A stretch of 48,135 nucleotides of DNA from Methylomicrobium sp. GTDB taxonomy: Bacteria; Pseudomonadota; Gammaproteobacteria; Methylococcales; Methylomonadaceae. The translations under genes were made by a program, and so were the position numbers. A model generated the notes under the pieces. It was given only the letters and a program-made list of their open reading frames with translations. It ran no database searches and had not been told where the DNA came from. Position 1 is the stretch's first letter; every line of letters begins with the position of its first letter. The stretch is from assembly GCA_018333785.1 (NCBI GenBank), contig JAGXSU010000086.1, positions 1-48,135 of the forward strand, written 5' to 3'. Below are positions 28,390 through 40,045 of the stretch, one piece after another.

Positions 28390-30969
28390 GTGAATACCAT
28401 CGACACCAATAGCGCCAATATTTCTGAAGGAGCCGACCCTTTGTATCATTCTGCCTCTTTCCAAGACCACTATGAGCCGCACGCGGACAAGGTAACTGAA
28501 GCTCAAATCGATGCAGCCTGCGAGAAAGCCTGTCAGGCCATCGCGCCTGCATGGCCATTGGACCGCGCCATCGCAGTCAATCCGCACTGGGGGCGGATCA
28601 ATCGTCCTCTGCGGCAAGTCGCGGCACGTATGGCGTTGCTTGGAAGTATCAAGGTATTTCCCACGCGCGAATACTTGCGCGAAGCTTGGGCCAAGGGCCG
28701 CATAACCCAACAAGACCTATTTTATGCGCTAGCGACACTGCAGCACGGTGAAGATTGCGCAGATCAATGTATCGATGCCTTGGAACAGACGCCGGAGCTC
28801 GTGCAACTGCCACTGCTCATCGATGCGCTGGATGACGATCCGGCACGTCACACGCGTCTTTCCTGGCGGCAGGCAATTACCCAGCAGGTGAGTCAGACCT
28901 GCGCAGCTTTCTTTGACGAGCATCAGGCCGATTGGCAGCCCGTCCGAGGGCAGGGGCTCTATGTCTTCTGGCGGGATACTCTGACTCATGACCATGGGAT
29001 CGGCATGTTGATGGGCTTGCCCAATCTCGGCAAGGGATTGAGCGCGTTGCCCGCGACACGGCGAGATGCAGAGAAATGGGCCATGAATCGCCTAGGCCTT
29101 CCAGAGTGCGCCTATGCTGATTATCTGGAGGCTGTGCTGTTGACTGTCAATGGATGGGCGTCCTGGTGCGCCTATCTGGGGTGGCAGGCGAAACAGGAAG
29201 GCCGAAGCGACGATCATCTGCGTGACCTGCTGGCCATTCGGTTGGCCTGGGGTGCCGTTTTGCTTGAGTGCAAAGCCGGTTCATCCGCACAACATGCCTT
29301 TACCGCCTTGCATAAGACCTGGAGCCATGCCACGGTGTTGCTGGCGGACGCGGAACGTGCGTTGTGGGTCGATGAAGTTTGGCAGTTTGCTCTGGAGGCA
29401 GGTTATCAGCGACAACTGGCGATCAATCTCAGCATCGCTTCTCTCCGCCATACCCTTAAGTCGTCTCGATCGGAAGTCGAAGTGCAGGCCGCTTTCTGCA
29501 TCGACGTCCGCAGCGAGCGACTCCGTCGTGCCCTGGAAACAGCGTCGCCGTCGATACAGACCATCGGCTTTGCGGGCTTCTTCGGGCTACCCATCGCTTA
29601 CACACCGTTTGCGACGAACGCCCGCCGTCCTCAACTGCCGGGACTTCTTGCGCCGACATTGGAGGTTTCGGACTGTGTCGTGGCCGAGGAATCCGCAGGC
29701 AATGAGACTTCGGCCTGCGAGCAGTTCGCTGCCAAGCAGGCCCGTCTGCGCAGTTTTGCCTGGTCGACACAATGGCAGGCCAATAGTCGCTGGCCTGGGG
29801 CCGCGTTTTCTTTCGTTGAGGCCGCAGGATTAAGCTATCTAGGCAAACTGGCGGGCTGGTTGATCCCCTCTGAGCAACCGCGTCCCCATGACGATCTGGC
29901 TGGCATGCCTGCGCGCTACCGTTCGCTGTGCCGGCCAGCGCTGACCGGTCTCGATCTAAGCGACAAAGTGAATCTCGCCGCCAGAGTCCTGCACGCTATG
30001 GGGCTCGATCATGACCTGGCACCGCTAGTACTGCTGGTCGGCCACGGTAGCCAGAGCGTCAACAACGCTCACGCGGCGGCCCTCGACTGCGGCGCGTGCT
30101 GCGGCCAGACGGGTGAAGTGAATGCCCGCGTACTGGCACAACTCCTCAACGATACTGCCTTACGCGCAGGCTTGGCAGATAAGAATATCACCATACCGTC
30201 GGAAACCGTGTTTCTGGCTGCATTGCACAACACCACGACCGATGAAGTCGAATGGTTCGACCAGGACTTGCTGCCGTTTCAAGCGCTGGAAAGGTTCGGA
30301 CGCGTGCAGTCGGCTTTCGATTGCGCTTGTGATCAGGTAAGACGCGAGCGCGCACCCGGACTGTCGCTGGATCCGCGCGGCGGGCATGCATATCTGTTGG
30401 AACAGGTGCGTCGCCGAGCCAATGATGGCGCACAGACACGCCCTGAATGGGGCTTGGTCGGCAACGCCTCGTTCATCATCGCGCCCAGAAGCCTTACCCA
30501 ACACATTGTGTTGGATGGACGCACATTCCTGCACGACTACGATGCACAGAACGATCCAGACGGCAGCATACTGGAATTGCTGATGACTGCACCGATGCTG
30601 GTCACGCATTGGATCAACTGGCAATACCACGCGTCCACTTGCGATCCGGATCGTCTCGGCAGTGGCAACAAAGTGCTGCATAACGTGGTAGGTGGTCACA
30701 TCGGTGTTTTCGAAGGTAACGGCGGTGATTTGCGAATCGGCTTGTCCAAACAATCCTTGCACAATGGGAAGCAATGGATGCACGAACCGTTGCGTCTGAC
30801 GGTAGTCATCGATGCGCCAAGAGTCGCTATCGAGCGCGTGATTCAGCAGCACACCGTGTTGCAACAACTGATCAATCACGGCTGGTTGCACTTGTGGCAT
30901 TTCGGTGAAAAGGGACTCAGCCGTTACTCCGTCGGCGAATGGGATCAGCTCGGACTGATGACTCAATGA
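28390..30969 (+). CDS. dabA: DabA, beta-carbonic-anhydrase-like subunit of the inorganic-carbon transporter (DUF2309)
   Basis: DabA is a large peripheral protein that, with DabB, converts CO2 to bicarbonate in one direction. The 859 residues start at a GTG with GAGGAG about 9 bases upstream. The zinc-site motifs of the family are present: Cys and Asp in AAFCIDVRSERLRRALE (about 370 and 372), and His and Cys in LVGHGSQSVNNAHAAALDCG plus the CGACCG tract (about 551-570). The NPHWGR-like motif near residue 64 and the C-terminal HNVVGGHIGVFEGNGGDLR are family features. A 60-base sample (28561-28620) is 65% GC by hand count, against 43% in a kdpA sample (32281-32340). Confidence 0.95.
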   Translation: MNTIDTNSANISEGADPLYHSASFQDHYEPHADKVTEAQIDAACEKACQAIAPAWPLDRAIAVNPHWGRINRPLRQVAARMALLGSIKVFPTREYLREAWAKGRITQQDLFYALATLQHGEDCADQCIDALEQTPELVQLPLLIDALDDDPARHTRLSWRQAITQQVSQTCAAFFDEHQADWQPVRGQGLYVFWRDTLTHDHGIGMLMGLPNLGKGLSALPATRRDAEKWAMNRLGLPECAYADYLEAVLLTVNGWASWCAYLGWQAKQEGRSDDHLRDLLAIRLAWGAVLLECKAGSSAQHAFTALHKTWSHATVLLADAERALWVDEVWQFALEAGYQRQLAINLSIASLRHTLKSSRSEVEVQAAFCIDVRSERLRRALETASPSIQTIGFAGFFGLPIAYTPFATNARRPQLPGLLAPTLEVSDCVVAEESAGNETSACEQFAAKQARLRSFAWSTQWQANSRWPGAAFSFVEAAGLSYLGKLAGWLIPSEQPRPHDDLAGMPARYRSLCRPALTGLDLSDKVNLAARVLHAMGLDHDLAPLVLLVGHGSQSVNNAHAAALDCGACCGQTGEVNARVLAQLLNDTALRAGLADKNITIPSETVFLAALHNTTTDEVEWFDQDLLPFQALERFGRVQSAFDCACDQVRRERAPGLSLDPRGGHAYLLEQVRRRANDGAQTRPEWGLVGNASFIIAPRSLTQHIVLDGRTFLHDYDAQNDPDGSILELLMTAPMLVTHWINWQYHASTCDPDRLGSGNKVLHNVVGGHIGVFEGNGGDLRIGLSKQSLHNGKQWMHEPLRLTVVIDAPRVAIERVIQQHTVLQQLINHGWLHLWHFGEKGLSRYSVGEWDQLGLMTQ

Positions 30970-30991
30970 TTTACTTTACGGGAGGATGATC

Positions 30992-31245
30992 ATGAATCAA
31001 CAAACAGGCTTGCAACGCGATTACACCGGGGATAGTATCGAAAATAATCGATGGGACGAGTCCGCAACCTATTTCAGCCATCTCGATGCGCTGGAGGCTT
31101 AAGCACTGTTGATCCTGCTCGAGGTCGCGGCGGAAGGCCGCGCCTGCGCCCCTTGGGATCCAGCAACTCCTATCAATCCGTCACTCTGTTGGAAGCTAGC
31201 GCCAGCGTCAAAACGGTCACTTCAGGCACCCATGCCGGACTATTA
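30992..31245 (+). pseudogene. Interrupted ORF after dabA
   Basis: An ATG at 30992 with GGAGGA just upstream opens a 36-codon frame (MNQQTGLQRDYTGD..., ending LDALEA). It stops at TAA (31100-31102), yet the same frame continues open with ALLILLEVAAEGRACAPWD and on into the IS3 remnant. This looks like a third gene of the dab operon with a premature stop and a lost 3' end. I do not recognise the protein. A genuine 36-residue peptide is an alternative. Confidence 0.4.
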
Positions 31246-31661
31246 CGCGTCATCTATCGCCGACAGCGTGGGCGACGGCAAGAGCAACCTGATCGGTCGC
31301 CAGTTCGCTGTTTTCGTGTTCATAAACTTGCCAACCAACGATCTTGCGGCTGAAAATACCCATGAACAAATACCGGTAGAAAAACGGGCCTTTGAAGAGG
31401 CTGGCCAAATAGGTGATATCTCAACTCGCCAGTTGTTTGGGTGCCGTCGCGTTGATGGCTTTGGGCTTGTTTAGCTCGACAGGCATGACGGTGACTCACT
31501 TGTTTCGCCTCGCGAAGAATGCGGTAAATTGTCCACTCCTACACATAATACTCGCCGCGTTGCAATACTTTACTAAGCGCTTGATCTTTAAATTCTTCAC
31601 TATAACGGGGTTGCATTTTGTACCTCTATAAAATTATAGAGGCGACAACTATCCAGCTACA
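31245..31661 (-). mobile_element. Decayed IS3-family insertion sequence remnant
   Basis: On the minus strand an ORF starts at 31614-31616, MQPRYSEEFKDQALSKVLQR, as in IS3-type OrfA, and breaks after 25 codons. It then jumps to OrfB-like WTIYRILREAKQVSH and, after a frameshift, DITYLASLFKGPFFYRYLFM with GIFSRKIVGWQVYEHENSEL. A deletion removed the middle of OrfA and the start of OrfB, and the second catalytic Asp is Gly (codon at 31358-31360; usual DIFSRK). The terminus TGTAGCTGGATAGTTGTCGCC (21 bases, ending at 31661) is probably the IS end. A cTCTATA hairpin (31623-31642) precedes OrfA. The element is inactive. Confidence 0.75.
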
Positions 31662-31677
31662 GAGTGCTTACCCGATC

Positions 31678-31730
31678 TAATTCTACTTTGTAAGATTTCA
31701 GGTTTCACATGACTGAAGGTCGTCATTTCG
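31678..31730 (+). mobile_element. Truncated copy of the MITE-like element
   Basis: TAATTCTACTTTGTAAGATT here is identical to the reverse complement of the right end of the element at 10121-10311. The match continues to about base 31730 with two differences over 52 bases. No second terminal repeat is found, so it is a truncated copy. It starts 17 bases past the IS3 remnant end. Confidence 0.65.
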
Positions 31731-31822
31731 GCATGGATGGTTCGAAGCTCGCCATCCAAGGCACTGGGAGCGGACACAATAGGCCGTTAAAAGTTTTACA
31801 TTTTTTTTACAGCCTCTTTCAT

Positions 31823-31843
31823 CATTTTTACGACTTTTTTATC
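31823..31843 (+). promoter_or_regulatory. T-rich tract resembling the E. coli KdpE operator
   Basis: CATTTTTA-CGA-CTTTTTTATC is laid out like the T-rich KdpE-binding site of E. coli kdpFABC as I recall it (CATTTTTA-TA-CTTTTTTTAC). It lies about 85 bases before the 26-codon ORF. A second T-rich tract (ACATTTTTTTTACAG) is at about 31798. kdpDE is encoded just downstream in the same operon. Confidence 0.4.
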
Positions 31844-31928
31844 TCGTTCTCTGTACATTTAACTGCAGCCGATTCAGGGTGTTTGCGTCAGTTTCAGACG
31901 TTGATGTAATTTTCAAAGAGGTGTGGCT

Positions 31929-32009
31929 ATGAATGTAAGCTATCGAGTCGATCTCTTTACGATAGGCCGTCTATGGGGCGTTCGCAACAAGTTGCGGAGG
32001 AGGCAGTGA
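31929..32009 (+). CDS. Small ORF (26 codons) overlapping kdpF, possible leader peptide
   Basis: ATG at 31929 is preceded by GAGGTG at 31918-31923, a strong ribosome-binding site five bases away. The frame encodes [18 protein letters not shown] plus RNKLRRRQ and stops at TGA (32007-32009), which shares its A with the kdpF ATG (TGATG). The peptide is short with a basic C-terminus (RNKLRRRQ) and no membrane helix. I do not recognise it. Good Shine-Dalgarno spacing and coupling make it more likely translated than chance. Confidence 0.5.
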
Positions 32010-32098
32010 TGAGTTGGGTTTATCTTTTGAGCGGCGGTTTTGCACTGACCGTGCTGGTTTATCTGGTCTTGGCTTTGTTTTATCCGGAGAAATTCTGA
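32009..32098 (+). CDS. kdpF: KdpF, small subunit of the K+-transporting ATPase
   Basis: KdpF is a single-helix peptide that stabilises KdpFABC in the inner membrane. The 29 codons match the E. coli length of 29. The sequence is [20 protein letters not shown] followed by LALFYPEKF: one hydrophobic helix and the usual YPExF end. The stop overlaps the kdpA start (TGATG). GCGGAGGAGGC at 31995-32005 provides a strong ribosome-binding site. Confidence 0.93.
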
Positions 32099-33921
32099 TG
32101 ACCGCACAAGGTTTTCTGCAAATTTCAATTTACTTTATCGTATTGCTTGTCTCGGTCAAACCATTGGGTATTTACATGGCGCGAATCTATCAAGACGAGC
32201 CCGCTGTTTTGAACCGCTGGTTTTCCTGTGTCGAAATGCGGATTTATCGGCTTTGCGGCATCAAACCGGATTTGGACATGCGTTGGCAACACTACGCCTT
32301 AGCCTTGCTGGTTTTTAATTTACTGGGTTTACTAGTGGTTTATGGCTTACAGCGTTGTCAAGATCTGTTACCGCTGAATCCGCAACGTTTTTCTGCGGTA
32401 GCCCCGGACTCAGCCTTCAATACCGCGGTGAGTTTTGCTACAAACACTAACTGGCAGGGTTATGGCGGCGAAAACACGATGAGTTATCTCACTCAAATGC
32501 TCGGTCTGTCGGTACAGAATTTCCTGTCTGCCGCCAGCGGCATGGCGGTGCTCGTGGCCTTAATAAGGGGTTTCAGCCGACGAAACAGCAACAGTATCGG
32601 CAATTTCTGGGTGGATGTGACCCGTAGCACGCTGTATATCTTGCTGCCGCTGTCGTTTATTCTGGCTTTGGTGCTGGTCAATCAGGGAGTGGTGCAGACG
32701 TTTAAGCCTTATGCATCGGTAAGCTTGCAGGAAGTACTCACTTATCAAACGCCCAAAGTGGATGAATACGGTAAAGCTGTGGCCGATGCAGAAGGCAGGC
32801 CGCTCACCGAAATAGTAACAGTAAGCGAACAAAACCTGGCATTGGGGCCGGCGGCATCGCAAATCGCCATCAAACAACTGGGTACCAACGGCGGCGGCTT
32901 TTTTAGCGTCAACTCTGCTCATCCGTTTGAGAATCCGACACCGCTGACTAACTTTCTGGAAATGCTGGCCATTCTTTTAATACCCGCGGCACTGTGTTAC
33001 ACCTTCGGCTTGATGATAGGCGATACCCGGCAAGGCTGGTTAATACTCGGGGTAATGACGCTGGTATTAGCCGCTCTGGTTTTCGTGGCGGTGTCGGCCG
33101 AGCAAAACGGCAATCCGCTATTAACCGCTTCTGGTGTTGATCAACGTGCCTCGATTCAGCAAGCCGGCGGTAATATGGAGGGCAAGGAAGCCCGATTTGG
33201 TATTGCCAATTCGGCCTTGTGGGCTGTGCTGACCACGGCAGCGTCCAATGGTTCGGTCAACTCCATGCACGATTCCTTTACGCCGATTGGCGGTATGGTA
33301 CCGATGTGGTTGATGCAATTGGGAGAGGTGATCTTCGGAGGGGTGGGTTCCGGCCTATACGGAATGATTGTGTTTGCAATCGTTGCGGTATTTATTGCCG
33401 GTCTGATGATAGGTCGTACCCCGGAATATCTGGGTAAAAAGATAGAAGCCTATGAGATGAAAATGACGGCGCTGATCATTCTGATCCCCCCGTTTCTGGT
33501 CCTGGGCGGGACAGCGCTGGCATTGATGACCGATGCCGGTAAAGCCGCTATTTTCAATCCGGGGCCTCACGGTTTCAGTGAAGTGTTATACGCTTTCTCT
33601 TCGGCAGGCAACAATAATGGCAGCGCATTCGGCGGTCTGGCGGCCAATGTGCCGTTCTACAATTTTATGCTTGGGCTGGCGATGCTGATTTCCCGCTATG
33701 GCTTAATGATACCGGTGCTGGCCCTTGCCGGCTCTCTGGCGGCCAAAACGATTGTGCCGGTCGGAGCCGGTACTTTGCCCACTCACACCCCCCTGTTTGC
33801 TGTGTTGCTGATCATCACGGTGGTGATGGTCGGCGCGTTGACCTTTGTGCCGGCACTGGCTCTAGGTCCTGTCGTCGAGCACCTGCAAATGACCGGTCAT
33901 TACTCTTTTAACGCCAGGTAA
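32098..33921 (+). CDS. kdpA: K+-transporting ATPase subunit A (KdpA)
   Basis: KdpA is the potassium-channel-like subunit that selects K+. From the ATG at 32098 ([17 protein letters not shown], overlapping the kdpF stop) it has 607 residues. Upstream in-frame starts fall inside kdpF. The four filter regions are seen: [55 protein letters not shown] and [13 protein letters not shown]. About ten hydrophobic helices fill the rest. No defect is visible. Confidence 0.97.
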
Positions 33922-33925
33922 TACT

Positions 33926-35998
33926 ATGACTAGCCCATCCGTTTCTACGTCTTTGATTAACCGACAACTATTTCAGCAAGCTTTGATCGATGCATTTGCC
34001 AAACTCACGCCAAGGCAGCAGTGGAAAAACCCGGTAATGTTTGTAGTCTACCTGGGCAGTCTGCTGACCAGTATTTTGTGGTTGCAAGCATTAAATGGTA
34101 AGAGTGATGAATCCGCCGGTTTTATCCTGCATATTTCGCTATGGCTTTGGTTTACCGTGCTATTTGCCAACTTCGCCGAAGCGATAGCCGAGGGTCGCAG
34201 TAAAGCCCAAGCGGCATTTTTACGCACCGCCAAGCGCGATATTGCCGCCAAAAAACTCGATGAACCCCGCTACGGCAGCAACTATTCCAAAATTGCCGGT
34301 TCCAGCTTGCGTAAAGATGATGTGGTGTTGATTGAAGCCGGAGATTATGTGCCGGGCGACGGCGAAGTGATAGAGGGGGTGGCGTCGGTAGACGAAAGCG
34401 CAATCACCGGCGAAAGCGCGCCGGTGATCCGCGAGTCGGGCGGAGACTTCAGTTCCGTTACCGGCGGCACGCGGGTCTTATCCGATTGGCTGGTCGTGAA
34501 GATTTCCACGAATCCCGGTGAAACCTTTCTGGATCGGATGATTGCTATGGTGGAATGCGCCAAACGCCAGAAAACTCCCAACGAAATCGCGCTGACCATT
34601 CTGCTGGTGGCTCTGTCCTTAGTCTTTCTGATGGCGACGGTAACGCTGCTGCCTTTCTCTTTATACAGTGTCGAAACTGCCGGTGCCGGTTCCCCCATCG
34701 GCATTACCGTGCTGGTAGCACTTTTAGTTTGTCTGATTCCTACCACCATCGGCGGTTTGCTGTCGGCTATCGGTGTTGCAGGTATTGGCCGGATGATGCA
34801 AAAGAATGTCATCGCTACTTCAGGCCGCGCCGTCGAAGCCGCCGGTGATGTTGATGTGCTGTTGCTGGACAAGACCGGCACCATTACCTTGGGTAATCGT
34901 CAAGCTTCAGGGTTCTTTCCTGTTAACGGGATTACCGATAAGGCATTGGCGGATGCCGCACAATTGGCCTCATTGGCTGATGAAACCCCGGAAGGCCGCA
35001 GTATCGTCGTGCTTGCCAAGCACAAAAACGGTTTACGTGAGCGGGATATTCATTCGCTGGGAGCGACTTTTGTTCACTTCAGCGCTCAAACCCGGATGAG
35101 CGGCGTCAATTTGCAAAGTCGTCAGATTCGCAAAGGCGCGGCGGATTCTATTCGTGCTTATATTGAAGAACAAGGGGGCAAGGTTCCACAAGAACTTAAA
35201 TCGCTGGTTGACGATGTGTCGCGTCGCGGCAGTACGCCCCTGGTGGTCTCGGAAGGCATGCAAGCTTTGGGGGTGATTGAGTTGAAAGACATCGTCAAGG
35301 GCGGCATCAAGGAGCGGTTTATTGAATTACGGCAGATGGGTATCAAAACCATCATGATCACCGGTGACAACCGGTTGACGGCTGCCGCCATTGCCGCAGA
35401 AGCCGGTGTCGACGACTTTCTGGCGGAAGCTACACCGGAGGCTAAACTCAGCTTGATTCGCCAATACCAGTCTGATGGCTGCTTGGTAGCGATGACGGGG
35501 GACGGCACCAATGACGCTCCGGCCTTGGCGCAAGCTGATGTGGCGGTGGCGATGAACAGCGGTACTCAGGCCGCAAAGGAAGCAGGCAACATGGTGGATC
35601 TGGATTCAAACCCGACCAAGTTGATCGAAATAGTCGAAACCGGCAAGCAAATGCTAATGACTCGTGGCGCGCTGACTACATTCAGCATTGCCAATGATGT
35701 CGCTAAATACTTTGCGATCATTCCTGCCGCTTTTGCTACAACCTATCCTGGCTTGAATGTACTGAATGTGATGGGATTAGCCACGCCATCCAGTGCAATT
35801 CTCTCGGCCGTGATTTTCAATGCGTTGATCATCATTGCCCTGATTCCGTTGGCCTTGAAAGGGATTAAATACCAGCCGGTAGGCGCCGAAAAACTGCTGC
35901 AAAACAATTTGCTGGTTTATGGGCTTGGTGGTTTGATCGTTCCGTTTGTCGGCATCAAGGGGATTGATCTTCTTTTAGTTGCAATGAATCTGGTGTAA
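33926..35998 (+). CDS. kdpB: K+-transporting P-type ATPase subunit B (KdpB)
   Basis: KdpB is the ATP-hydrolysing P-type ATPase of the Kdp pump. The 690-residue product has the actuator motif [17 protein letters not shown] (about residue 155), the phosphorylated Asp in [13 protein letters not shown] (about 312), the nucleotide-binding KGAADSIR region and the hinge motif [17 protein letters not shown] (about 520). The ATG follows kdpA by 4 bases. All catalytic motifs are intact. Confidence 0.98.
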
Positions 35999-36010
35999 GA
36001 GGAAGCCTCT

Positions 36011-36601
36011 ATGTCTATTTATTTAAAACCCGCCGCAATGCTGTTTATGCTATTGACACTGATTACCGGGGTTATTTATCCCGGTCTTGTCACCGCACTG
36101 GCCCAACTCATGTTTACTGAACAAGCCAACGGCAGCCTCATCATCAATGAGCAGGGGCACGCGAAAGGTTCAGTATTGATCGGTCAGCCGTTCACGGCAA
36201 ACCGATACTTTTGGGGGCGTCCCTCAGCCACCGGACCTCACCCTTATAATGCAGCGGCGTCTGCCGGCTCCAATCTGGGGCCGACCAATCCGGCATTAAT
36301 CGATGCCGTTTCTGCCCGCATCAAGGCATTGCAAGATGCCGACCCCACCAATAAAGCACCGGTTCCGGTGGATTTGGTGACGGCCTCTGCGAGCGGCCTT
36401 GATCCTCATATCAGTGTTGCTGCGGCAGCGTATCAAATCAATCGTATCGCCAAAGCACGACAAATTGACGCAGTCAAGCTGCGTGAACTGGTTGATGCGT
36501 TGACTGAAAACCGTCTGTGGCAGGTGTTTGGGGAGCCGAGAGTCCATGTCTTACGGTTGAATGTGGCTCTGGATGAATTGAAACGTAAATCCGGACAGTA
36601 A
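36011..36601 (+). CDS. kdpC: K+-transporting ATPase subunit C (KdpC)
   Basis: KdpC is the assembly subunit, with one N-terminal membrane helix (about residues 5-30) and a periplasmic domain. The 196 residues include GSVLIGQPFTANRYFWGRPS and GSNLGPTNPALIDAV, typical family motifs, and SASGLDPHISVAAAAYQI. It follows kdpB with a GAGGAAG ribosome-binding site at 35999-36005. Confidence 0.96.
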   Translation: MSIYLKPAAMLFMLLTLITGVIYPGLVTALAQLMFTEQANGSLIINEQGHAKGSVLIGQPFTANRYFWGRPSATGPHPYNAAASAGSNLGPTNPALIDAVSARIKALQDADPTNKAPVPVDLVTASASGLDPHISVAAAAYQINRIAKARQIDAVKLRELVDALTENRLWQVFGEPRVHVLRLNVALDELKRKSGQ

Positions 36602-36613
36602 GGATTGGGAACG

Positions 36614-39343
36614 ATGTTGAATAATGAGCGTCCCGATCCTGACCAATTATTAGCACGCGTCGAACGTGATAATGCCAAAGCCCGTCGAGGGCGTTTAAAA
36701 ATATTCTTCGGTGCGGCGGCCGGCGTCGGCAAAAGCTACTCAATGCTGCTCGCCGCAAGGGAGCGGCGTGCTGAAAATCTTGATGTGATGGTCGGTCTGA
36801 TCGAAACCCATGGCCGAAAGGAAACCCAGGCATTACTTGAAGGGTTGGATATTTTGCCGACCCGCAGAATCAACTACAGAGGGGCCGTATTACAGGAATT
36901 TGACCTTGATGCGGCTTTGAAACGTCGGCCTGGCATCATTTTAGTGGATGAACTGGCACATACCAATGCGCCGGGGTGCCGGCATCCTAAACGTTGGCAG
37001 GACATACACGAACTGCTGGAGGCGGGGATCGATGTTTACACAGCGCTCAATGTACAACATTTGGAAAGCCTCAATGACGACATTGGCCAGATTTCCGGTA
37101 TAAGGGTCAGGGAAACGGTGCCGGATACTGTATTTGAAGATGCCGATGAGGTGGAATTGGTTGATCTTCCTCCGGATGAATTATTGCTGCGACTCAAAGA
37201 AGGCAAGGTTTATTTGCCCCAACAGGCTAAAGATGCGGTTCATCATTTTTTTCGCAAAGGCAATCTGATTGCTTTGCGTGAATTAGCCTTGCGGCAGACG
37301 GCCAACAGGGTGGATGCACAAATGCTGGATTATCGCGAAGGTCATGCGATACGGGAAGTCTGGCAAGTCAATGAACGCATTTTGGTTTGTATTGGTCCCA
37401 ACCCTCTGGCCGAACGACTGGTCCGGGCGGGTAAACGCTTGTCCGCAAGTTTACGAGCAGAATGGGTTGTTGCCTATGTAGAAACACCTGTTCTGCAACG
37501 CTTACCTTCTGTAAAACGCGATGGCGTGCTGCGCATCTTACGCTTGGCGGAACAACTTGGCGCAGAAACTGTGACGCTGAGTGCGCCTGAAATGAGCACT
37601 GCCATTATCCGTTTTGCCCGTGAACGCAACATCAATAAAATAGTGGTCGGTAAACCCAGTCGCCGGGGCTGGAAACGCTGGTTATTGGGTTCTGTTGTCG
37701 ACGTACTGATCAGCCATGCCCATAACATCAATATTTACCTGCTCGGCAGCCCGCAAAAGGAGGATGAAACGGAACTCGAAGTGTCGCTGTTCAAAAGAAC
37801 ACCGCTTCCTGGTTTGCGGCAACGCCTGCCGTCCAGAACTCAAAAACGTTACCGCGGCTATATCTCGGCATTGGCTGTTACAATGATCAGCACCTTGATT
37901 GCGAGTCTCATGTTTGGCAAACTGGAACTTGCCAACTTGGTCATGGTGTATCTTCTCGGCATTGTGTTTGTCGCTACCCGTTTTGGGCAGGGAGCCTCAA
38001 TTCTCGCTTCGCTGTCGGGAGCTGTCATTTTCGATCTGCTGTTCGTGAAACCCTTTTACAGTCTAACGATAGCCGATAGCCAGTATCTGATTACACTTTT
38101 AACCATGCTGGTCGTCGGGTTGGTGATCAGCAACCTGATGACGAATGTCCGTTCCCAGGCGAAGGTGGCCTCTCATCGCGAACGCCGCGCAGCAGTGTTG
38201 TATGCGATCAGCAAGGAACTGGCCAGTAGCCAAAGCGAGGAGGAAGTGGTGAGGACAGCGGTGCGCCATTTATATTCCGAATTCAGCAGCCGTAACGTTA
38301 TTTTGTTTCCGGATCCTGAGGGACGGGTGGTTTATCCACGGCAGATCGGTATCGCCGAATCACTGCATGGCTGCGATCTGAGTGTCGCCCAATGGGTTCT
38401 GGATCACAACGAAATGGCGGGGCAGGGTACCAATACATTACCGGGCTCCGAGTCTATCTACTTTCCCATTCAGAATGATGACAAGGTGCTGGGCGTTCTG
38501 GCTATGCTGCCTGTTAATCTCAGGCGGATATTCTTACCCGAGCAGCAAAAACTGCTGGAAACGTTTTTACGGCAAATCGGCCAAGCGATAGCGCGAATTC
38601 GCCTCGCCGAGCAGGCCAAGATCACGCAACTGCAGATAGAAGCCGAACGCTTACGAAATTCACTACTCAGTGCAATTTCACACGATTTAAGGACTCCGTT
38701 GGCAACCATTATCGGCTCGGCCAGTACGCTTTTGGAAGAGGACAAACATCTGCATAGACAAGACAGACTTGAGCTCAGCCGCTCCATAGTCGATGAAGCC
38801 GGCCGAATGTCTAATCTGATTAATAACATTCTGGACATGGCCAGGCTCGATGCCGGAATGGAGGAACTCAATAAAGAGTGGCATCCGGTTGAGGAAATTA
38901 TCGGTACCGTATTGACGCGCATACAAAAGCAATTATCAGGACGTAGAGTCAAAGTCAATCTCCCTCCGGGAATGCCAATGGTCTATGCCGATGCAGTGAT
39001 GATAGAGCAAGTGTTGATCAACTTGCTGGAAAACGCAGTCCGTTATACTCCGGCGGGCAGCGAACTGGCTATTGACGTGGAAGTCAGCCCGAATAAAGTG
39101 GAAATTGCTGTCGCCGATCATGGACCGGGAATACCCAAAGGCATGGAAAACCGGTTGTTTGAAAAGTTTTATCAGGGTCGCCATGAAGCCGCACAAAGCG
39201 GGGTGGGTTTGGGTCTGGCGATCTGTCGTGCCATCGTCGAGATTCATGGCGGTAAGATACAGGCTCAGAACCGGCCCGGCGGAGGGGCGGTGTTTACTTT
39301 TGTTTTACCCGTCGATCAATTACCCCCGGTAATAGACCACTAA
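36614..39343 (+). CDS. kdpD: Sensor histidine kinase KdpD
   Basis: KdpD senses potassium limitation and phosphorylates KdpE. It has 909 residues from the ATG at 36614 (AAGGA at 36600-36604; an in-frame TTG at 36605 is less likely). An N-terminal KdpD domain has Walker A GAAAGVGKSYSML (about 34) and Walker B VDELAHTNAPG. A universal-stress-like domain follows, then four membrane helices (about 415-520), a GAF-like domain, HisKA with the phospho-accepting His in SAISHDLRTPLATIIGSA (about 697) and an ATPase domain with NLLENAVRYTP and VADHGPGIPKG. No degeneration is seen. Confidence 0.97.
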   Translation: MLNNERPDPDQLLARVERDNAKARRGRLKIFFGAAAGVGKSYSMLLAARERRAENLDVMVGLIETHGRKETQALLEGLDILPTRRINYRGAVLQEFDLDAALKRRPGIILVDELAHTNAPGCRHPKRWQDIHELLEAGIDVYTALNVQHLESLNDDIGQISGIRVRETVPDTVFEDADEVELVDLPPDELLLRLKEGKVYLPQQAKDAVHHFFRKGNLIALRELALRQTANRVDAQMLDYREGHAIREVWQVNERILVCIGPNPLAERLVRAGKRLSASLRAEWVVAYVETPVLQRLPSVKRDGVLRILRLAEQLGAETVTLSAPEMSTAIIRFARERNINKIVVGKPSRRGWKRWLLGSVVDVLISHAHNINIYLLGSPQKEDETELEVSLFKRTPLPGLRQRLPSRTQKRYRGYISALAVTMISTLIASLMFGKLELANLVMVYLLGIVFVATRFGQGASILASLSGAVIFDLLFVKPFYSLTIADSQYLITLLTMLVVGLVISNLMTNVRSQAKVASHRERRAAVLYAISKELASSQSEEEVVRTAVRHLYSEFSSRNVILFPDPEGRVVYPRQIGIAESLHGCDLSVAQWVLDHNEMAGQGTNTLPGSESIYFPIQNDDKVLGVLAMLPVNLRRIFLPEQQKLLETFLRQIGQAIARIRLAEQAKITQLQIEAERLRNSLLSAISHDLRTPLATIIGSASTLLEEDKHLHRQDRLELSRSIVDEAGRMSNLINNILDMARLDAGMEELNKEWHPVEEIIGTVLTRIQKQLSGRRVKVNLPPGMPMVYADAVMIEQVLINLLENAVRYTPAGSELAIDVEVSPNKVEIAVADHGPGIPKGMENRLFEKFYQGRHEAAQSGVGLGLAICRAIVEIHGGKIQAQNRPGGGAVFTFVLPVDQLPPVIDH

Positions 39344-39352
39344 GCTAAAACC

Positions 39353-40045
39353 ATGGCCAAAACTGTCTCAGTAATTATCGTAATCGAAGATGACCCTGCC
39401 ATTCGCCGTTTTTTGCGTACCGGGCTAAGTAGCCAGGGCTTTTCGGTGTTTGAGGCTGACACCGGAAAGCAAGGCATCATCGAAGCGGGTATCCGAAAGC
39501 CCGATCTTATCATTCTGGACTTGGGTCTACCGGACATGGACGGCTCGCAGGTTATCAAAGCCATCCGGGAATGGTCATCGATACCCATCATCATTCTCTC
39601 GGCACGCAGCAGTGAACAGACCAAAATCGATGCGCTAGATGCAGGGGCTGACGATTATTTGACCAAACCATTTGGTTTCGGCGAGTTGTTAGCCAGGATT
39701 CGCGTTGCCTTACGACACGCTTCTCGCTCATTGGCGTCAGAAGCCGAGGTCTTTACCAGCGGTAATCTGAAAATCGATGTGTTGAATCGGATAGTCAATG
39801 TTGACGGTACAGAAGTGCATTTGACTCCGATTCAATTTCGATTATTGTCAGTGTTAGTCCAACATGCCGGAAAGGTTCTAACCCATAAACAAATTCTCAA
39901 AGAGGTGTGGGGGCCTTCATACCAGGAAAACGCTCATTATCTTCGAATCTACATGAGCCAGCTGCGCCACAAGCTGGAAACCGATCCAACCCAGCCCCAG
40001 CATTTGTTAACTGAATCCGGTGTAGGCTATCGCCTGAAGCTTTAA
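39353..40045 (+). CDS. kdpE: Response regulator KdpE
   Basis: KdpE is the OmpR-type activator of the kdp operon. The 230 residues comprise a receiver domain with EDDPAIRRFLRTGLSS, the phospho-acceptor Asp in LIILDLGLPDMDG (about residue 61) and the Lys in LTKPFGFGELLARIR, and a C-terminal winged-helix domain (LTPIQFRLLSVLVQHAG and LRIYMSQLRHKLE). It is the last gene of kdpFABCDE, and a terminator follows about 95 bases downstream. Confidence 0.97.
   Translation: MAKTVSVIIVIEDDPAIRRFLRTGLSSQGFSVFEADTGKQGIIEAGIRKPDLIILDLGLPDMDGSQVIKAIREWSSIPIIILSARSSEQTKIDALDAGADDYLTKPFGFGELLARIRVALRHASRSLASEAEVFTSGNLKIDVLNRIVNVDGTEVHLTPIQFRLLSVLVQHAGKVLTHKQILKEVWGPSYQENAHYLRIYMSQLRHKLETDPTQPQHLLTESGVGYRLKL

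Follow-up and report, generated by a model that had tools for sequence, protein, structure and literature searches.

Results and discussion

A small open frame before kdpF

What is the short open reading frame that stands directly before kdpF in a Methylomicrobium sp. genome? The window, that is, the whole 48,135-nucleotide stretch of DNA that was analysed, contains a kdp operon in which the ORF list and its translation place an open 26-codon frame ahead of kdpF. The original prediction took this frame for a possible Kdp leader peptide, positively charged, that could sense ionic conditions during translation or bind the KdpFABC complex. The features of the locus are given below.

about 31793-31842, forward strand: T-rich region, putative KdpE-like operator (read from the sequence)
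31918-31923, forward strand: GAGGTG, ribosome site of the small ORF, 5 bases before its ATG
31929-32009, forward strand: 26-codon frame, most likely a decayed remnant of a kdpF-upstream microprotein gene (slot, phase, no transmembrane segment, 1.4 bits on the family HMM)
31995-32003, forward strand: CGGAGGAGG, Shine-Dalgarno sequence of kdpF, read in frame as RRR (from the sequence)
32009-32098, forward strand: kdpF, 29 codons (Pfam PF09604, 23 bits against a cut-off of 21.2, E 7.4e-5)
32098-33921, forward strand: kdpA (Pfam PF03814, 813 bits)
33700-33702, forward strand: KdpA codon 535, GGC, Gly (E. coli Gly495); Trp in most microprotein-bearing relatives
33926-35998, forward strand: kdpB (Pfam)
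36011-36601, forward strand: kdpC (Pfam)
36605-39343, forward strand: kdpD, start set mechanically (Pfam)
39353-40045, forward strand: kdpE (Pfam)

The rest of the operon, from kdpB to kdpE, was intact. The translation signals that had been predicted for the small ORF were recovered: its GAGGTG is well placed, and its stop codon TGA (32007-32009) shares one A with the kdpF ATG, giving TGATG at 32007-32011. The ORF also lies downstream of the T-rich block, as had been described. The block was likewise seen across 15 aligned upstream regions (weakest in L047), and we take it, from general knowledge and the original prediction, to be a putative KdpE-like operator. The predicted basic tail is present in the peptide but is no independent feature. 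Codons 23-25 (CGG AGG AGG) are the Shine-Dalgarno sequence of kdpF, and the end of the ORF is basic because of this overlap.

A lone short frame has no edge over chance at this locus, since a mechanical list gave 169 ORFs of at least 20 amino acids over positions 29000-40000. The window ORF goes beyond chance because relatives keep a frame at the same place, in the same phase relative to kdpF, with its ribosome site and first codons. A riboswitch or other known RNA element at the slot was rejected, as no Rfam family matched up to E 5 in 30900-32600, upstream of kdpF. For Caulobacter, the available text of one study describes kdpF as unannotated and preceded by a structured 5′ UTR of ~100 nt, and notes no further gene there (PMC8552747).

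Farther upstream, at 28390-30969 on the forward strand, stands a gene of the DabA family, whose product is a probable inorganic carbon transporter subunit (866 bits). Between this gene and kdp, fragments on the reverse strand at 31253-31616 resemble, weakly and below threshold, an integrase core domain (E 0.03) and a transposase HTH (E 0.034); they are perhaps a decayed insertion sequence.

A family of transmembrane microproteins encoded before kdpF

KdpA was found in 26 of 61 Methylococcales genomes, the window's genome among them. Seventeen of these 26 kdp loci carried a 30-codon frame with its ATG at −89 from the kdpF ATG and an ATGA overlap with kdpF. Its product is hydrophobic, with the consensus MDxxYLxLxxxFFxVTxxLVYGCExLRGQS. 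Using the 17 members as seed, we iterated a family HMM over 20-60-codon ORFs from 206 kdp upstream regions at E 0.01; KdpF-like frames were removed from the matches by pattern, on both strands. Matches were obtained in none of the reverse-strand ORFs of these regions and in 152 of the 206 regions, which is not a count of independent genomes because the Methylococcales set and the named-genome set, the latter picked by similarity to the window's KdpA, have at least five loci in common. By sample, the matches comprised 17/26 Methylococcales loci, 69/80 named-genome loci from the KdpA scan, and 66/100 Pseudomonadota loci.

The wider family is a single-transmembrane microprotein, 26-34 residues long in 145 of the 152 members, with the pattern MDxxYLxLxxxFFALTxxLxxxCERL. 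This transmembrane pattern was conserved across phyla; the record titles of the 80 named-genome loci include beta- and deltaproteobacteria, Nitrospirae, Rokubacteria, Planctomycetes, Chloroflexi, Omnitrophota and Brocadia. Three members (L152, L178 and L228) carry long hydrophilic C-terminal tails and reach 49-54 residues in all.

The Pseudomonadota sample was drawn evenly, taking 100 of 107 genomes with kdpA and leaving out the window's own genome, G308, G150, G154, G356, G184 and the fragmented G145. Among its 34 loci without an HMM match, 22 belong to two gammaproteobacterial families, f13 (0/12 matched) and f16 (0/10); KdpF of f16 ends as E. coli KdpF does. Re-reading by script identified five further frames in this sample that are family-like though missed by the HMM, and a sixth (L192) was recognised by eye only. 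These six weak presences were called from the DNA before the KdpA residue was looked up, and are counted apart.

Plasmid-borne kdp loci also carried the family. At E 0.1, 13 of 20 matched, a figure for which the fair count is 9 of 16 because a family member had served as query in finding four of the 20 loci. The matching plasmids came from Rhizobium (two), Azospirillum, Caballeronia, Sinorhizobium meliloti 1021, Acetobacter, Methylocystis, Burkholderia, Novosphingobium, Cupriavidus, Deinococcus and Streptomyces (two). Plasmid loci of Rhodococcus and Phocaeicola had hydrophobic frames in the slot without an HMM match, and were counted as bearers in the KdpA-residue comparison below. The kdp loci examined from E. 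coli, Moraxella, Lactiplantibacillus, Halobacterium and Picosynechococcus gave no family match with the HMM at E 0.1; for E. coli, this agrees with the earlier remark that the classical kdp operon is not known to have such a gene.

Substitutions were compared within 12 disjoint pairs, taken from 48 members of thirty codons. In-frame pN/pS was 0.36; the two other frames gave 1.04 and 1.42. Differences at the three codon positions numbered 49, 37 and 86. At the sequence level, these values demonstrate a protein-coding family under purifying selection.

The gene is closely coupled to kdpF. Among the 143 members with a usable kdpF, the overlap was 4 nt in 70 and 1 nt in 8, and the microprotein gene ended within −4 to +16 nt of the kdpF start in 133. 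Eight members lie 25-250 nt upstream of kdpF, and two lie after it. In the latter two, the Pseudomonadota loci L202 and L207 (code f12), the order is swapped, with the microprotein frame between kdpF and kdpA.

These results bear on the original prediction, which was partly supported. There is indeed a slot for a small gene, coupled to kdpF, between that gene and the kdp promoter region. The slot withstood the refutation that had been proposed, namely a frame not conserved in relatives that keep the kdpF start and upstream sequence, because its frame is conserved in relatives. The positively charged, ion-sensing leader was not supported: the basic tail is a Shine-Dalgarno sequence, and the family is a hydrophobic single-transmembrane protein with selection at the amino-acid level. 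An aside in the same prediction, that the peptide might bind the KdpFABC complex, is the reading that we favour for the intact family, where such binding is putative.

Relation to known small proteins

One close comparison is with KdpF itself (PF09604/TIGR02115), which is likewise a single transmembrane helix of ~29 residues encoded by an adjacent gene of the same operon. KdpF, however, ends in a (P/A)E.F-like motif, whereas the microprotein ends in CERL or similar, and both are present at most microprotein-bearing loci. A KdpF duplicate or paralogue was rejected on profile comparison, which detected no homology between the two (hhalign probability 3.5). Thirteen members were scanned against Pfam and NCBIfam; none reached a cut-off or hit KdpF, and seven gave sub-threshold hits to unrelated models (best E 0.0096). 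The window ORF likewise had no KdpF-family hit in these scans. One member tried against the PDB matched no chain.

Family members are already present in databases under an automatic product name. The RefSeq entries WP_191287747.1 (Mycetohabitans) and WP_206366234.1 (Caballeronia), called "potassium ABC transporter ATPase", are members of 34 residues, for which this name is ill-fitting since they are short transmembrane peptides. The Mycetohabitans member overlaps the annotated kdpF by 4 nt. In other records, the member is named a hypothetical protein or left unannotated. In the literature, the product name turned up in an oral-integron study, as far as the available text of that study goes.

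Extra kdp genes beyond kdpFABC include KdpG of cyanobacteria and KdpQ of haloarchaea, which we take to occupy other places in the operon. Two kdp loci from these groups, one cyanobacterial and the other haloarchaeal, were examined and had no family match. As gene names in the literature, kdpX, kdpG, kdpH and kdpQ had unrelated uses. Searches of open-access main texts found no account of a microprotein gene upstream of kdpF, and the available text of five papers on small proteomes and small proteins contains KdpF itself or nothing relevant (PMC11364881, PMC9650054, PMC10117765, PMC12350097, PMC10903887). As far as could be seen, a kdp operon with an extra conserved microprotein gene has not been described, and small accessory transmembrane proteins are a known kind. 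CydX and AcrZ, short transmembrane helices encoded with or for a large membrane complex, are set beside the microprotein here by kind, partly from general knowledge and partial sources; in the case of the microprotein, the interaction is putative.

A KdpA residue that tracks the microprotein

A KdpA tree of 61 rows was built by a quick method, leaving out the partial loci L025 and L026 and five duplicates. On the best tree, microprotein presence changed six times, and three of these changes were forced by well-supported branches; tree support was modest, with three independent loss pairs on well-supported branches. For the six loss events, change was looked for at KdpA columns at least 90% conserved among bearers. 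A single column had changed every time, and each time from Trp to Gly. It corresponds to Gly495 of E. coli, which lies beside Arg493 at the vestibule for K+, and to Gly535 in the window. On the 61-row tree, Trp was present in 43/43 bearers and Gly in 18/18 non-bearers, including the window.

Of the remaining 333 conserved KdpA columns, none changed in more than four loss events; for 190 KdpB N-terminal columns and 13 KdpF columns, the maximum was two (53 of the 61 rows for each of these two proteins). When 1000 random sets of six bearers were drawn, a change to the same residue at an invariant column reached at most 3/6 (11 sets) and never 6/6. Under a looser measure, which counts a change of any kind at a column with 90% conservation, 6/6 was reached by one of the 1000 sets and 5/6 by four.

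The KdpA column was chosen from the data, and a second sample supported it with exceptions. Across the 99 non-duplicate rows of the Methylococcales and named-genome sets, 72 of 80 bearers had Trp, the others having Pro (three), Thr (three), Ala (one) or Leu (one), and 18 of 19 non-bearers had Gly. The exception, L096, has Trp without a microprotein match, and no kdpF was found there either. In the Pseudomonadota sample, a bulky residue (W, F, L or I) occupied the site in 45/65 bearers and 0/27 non-bearers (Fisher 8e-11, not corrected for kinship); one present and one absent row without a readable KdpA site stand outside these counts. With the six weak presences included as bearers, the figures were 46/71 and 0/27.

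Since 13 of the 65 Pseudomonadota bearers have Gly at the site, the link is one-way outside the Methylococcales tree: a bulky residue implies the microprotein. This rule may itself fail outside the sampled groups, because the distant non-bearing plasmid loci of Lactiplantibacillus, Halobacterium and Picosynechococcus have Leu or Val at the site.

Two non-bearers, M_L022 and M_L024, have very long KdpA end branches (0.57 and 0.53; median 0.12). Non-bearer rows as a group had more changes at conserved KdpA columns (median 11 versus 4), a comparison in which the rate of each organism is uncontrolled.

Linkage to kdp and a possible accessory subunit

A six-frame search of the 61 whole Methylococcales genomes with a 36-sequence family alignment matched 16 genomes, once each and always directly before kdpF, and gave no match in the 35 genomes without kdpA. 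It missed one of 17 known members (G051). A second copy in the window's genome was rejected, with no match at E 0.01 in a whole-genome search. One Chloroflexi member searched against plasmids yielded 103 records in four genera, all of them weak, with E 0.1 or worse among the matches listed. Four of the plasmid records were opened; the three annotated ones have the member just before kdpF, and the fourth is from Caballeronia.

Two Caballeronia copies stand apart. One (L112, 1501-1602) has neither kdpF nor kdpA after it, and the kdp locus of its plasmid carries a separate family copy. Another, on a different plasmid (L332, 1501-1605), lies 500 nt after a KUP/HAK/KT potassium transporter gene. 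With no kdp genes next to them, these copies show that the family is not bound strictly to KdpFABC, and they leave room for a wider role in K+ transport. The L332 member sits before a sodium:proton antiporter gene on the other strand.

What comparison across genomes demonstrates is a coding family, its near-restriction to kdp, its coupling geometry and its co-change with KdpA. We consider it probable that this microprotein is an unrecognised accessory Kdp subunit that contacts KdpA and that has decayed in the window genome. Linkage and co-change are strong in Methylococcales and one-way elsewhere, with off-kdp copies in Caballeronia. The microprotein helix would be made in step with KdpF, would presumably pack against KdpA near E. 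coli position 495, and might stabilise or tune the pump, as KdpF does for the complex. In its available text, one paper describes KdpF as a single transmembrane helix with a stabilising effect on the complex, and places a cardiolipin between KdpA and KdpB of E. coli, at their interface, with one of its chains reaching toward the tunnel (PMC8385062). We speculate that the peptide helix takes the place of such a cardiolipin in other bacteria.

A broader version of this proposal is put forward tentatively. KdpFABC may be a five-protein complex widely in bacteria, in which a transmembrane microprotein on KdpA affects K+ passage or stability, and the E. coli form may be derived. The binding site would lie beside the vestibule and tunnel, around E. 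coli Arg493-Gly495-Val496, and the E. coli pump of the structures would be one without the microprotein and with a small residue at this site. KdpFABC serves as the model for a P-type pump that works together with a joined, channel-like subunit. When the window's KdpA was searched against the PDB, 25 entries with three distinct sequences were returned, all of 557 residues, the E. coli length. If many other Kdp pumps have an additional helix close to the K+ vestibule, studies of their mechanism, stoichiometry and expression lack one component. The joint loss of the peptide and one KdpA side chain is a natural experiment that offers a direct two-mutation test.

The microprotein might also be real and act on the sensor KdpD or on K+ transport generally rather than bind KdpA, a reading that we regard as unlikely. 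The Caballeronia copies away from kdp, one of them near a KUP transporter gene, fit it, as does the presence of KdpD in nearly every kdpA genome of the Pseudomonadota sample, because of which KdpA and KdpD are inseparable as partners there. Against KdpD, however, the residue that tracks the microprotein is in KdpA, coupling is tight to kdpF, and one genome (G220), a single case, has kdpA and a family-like frame with no KdpD match.

Still less probable is a translated leader that couples or regulates kdpF translation and whose peptide sequence is of little weight. The ATGA or TGATG overlap in 78 of the 143 usable cases would suit such a leader, and the window retains all translation signals despite its changed peptide. 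A leader of this kind would show selection on its signals and not on its amino acids, whereas the intact family, with its pN/pS of 0.36, is under purifying selection on amino acids. The transmembrane pattern shared across phyla, the copies that do not adjoin kdpF and the co-change in KdpA also argue against it.

The window copy as a probable remnant

In contrast to the intact members, the window ORF has lost the hydrophobic core. It occupies the same slot in the same phase as the −89 frames and is nine bases shorter, so by position it belongs with the family; by transmembrane core and HMM it does not. Its ribosome site and first five codons aligned with those of ten relatives (z 6.1), whereas codons 6-21 did not (z 0.2). 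It scored 1.4 bits on the family HMM, its hydropathy was 0.41 against 1.73-3.16 in the family, and its core contains four charges against 0-2 in all 152 members. Reading by eye found no hydrophobic frame among the other frames of the window, and an intact gene hidden there was rejected. On the KdpA tree, the window's neighbours L020 and L009 have the microprotein gene.

Because its transmembrane segment is lost, the window ORF is most likely a decayed remnant of the microprotein gene and not a functional member. Decay would have removed the transmembrane-coding middle and spared the ribosome site, the start and the stop-start overlap, and KdpA would have come to carry Gly as in the other losers. 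The presence of this Gly beside a remnant that can still be read suggests that both changes were close in time. On the five-protein proposal, the window would represent an early stage of loss. The remnant may still be translated, probably has no protein function, and at most brings ribosomes to kdpF. The window "leader" is thus probably a fossil, and a wrong annotation is avoided.

It is highly improbable that the transmembrane gene has evolved here into one for a new, soluble, basic peptide. Although the frame's 26 codons are open and its translation signals good, no relative among the ten compared has the new middle; L020 and L009, the nearest neighbours on the tree, carry the transmembrane form; and an open middle of 16 codons is unsurprising by chance. 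Hardest of all to credit is an assembly or sequencing error in a species with an intact gene: the window does come from one draft assembly of a single strain, in 201 contigs. Its middle, however, is an unrelated sequence and not one displaced by a single base, and the Gly of the losers stands independently in KdpA, where an assembly error leaves it unexplained.

Two other loci with altered frames were noticed by eye. L051 is another likely relic, in which a family-like end (SKGLRGKL) persists only in a shifted frame. In L003 (the same as L056), the first part seems to contain a frameshift that is later compensated, yet the frame keeps a score of 36.8 bits.
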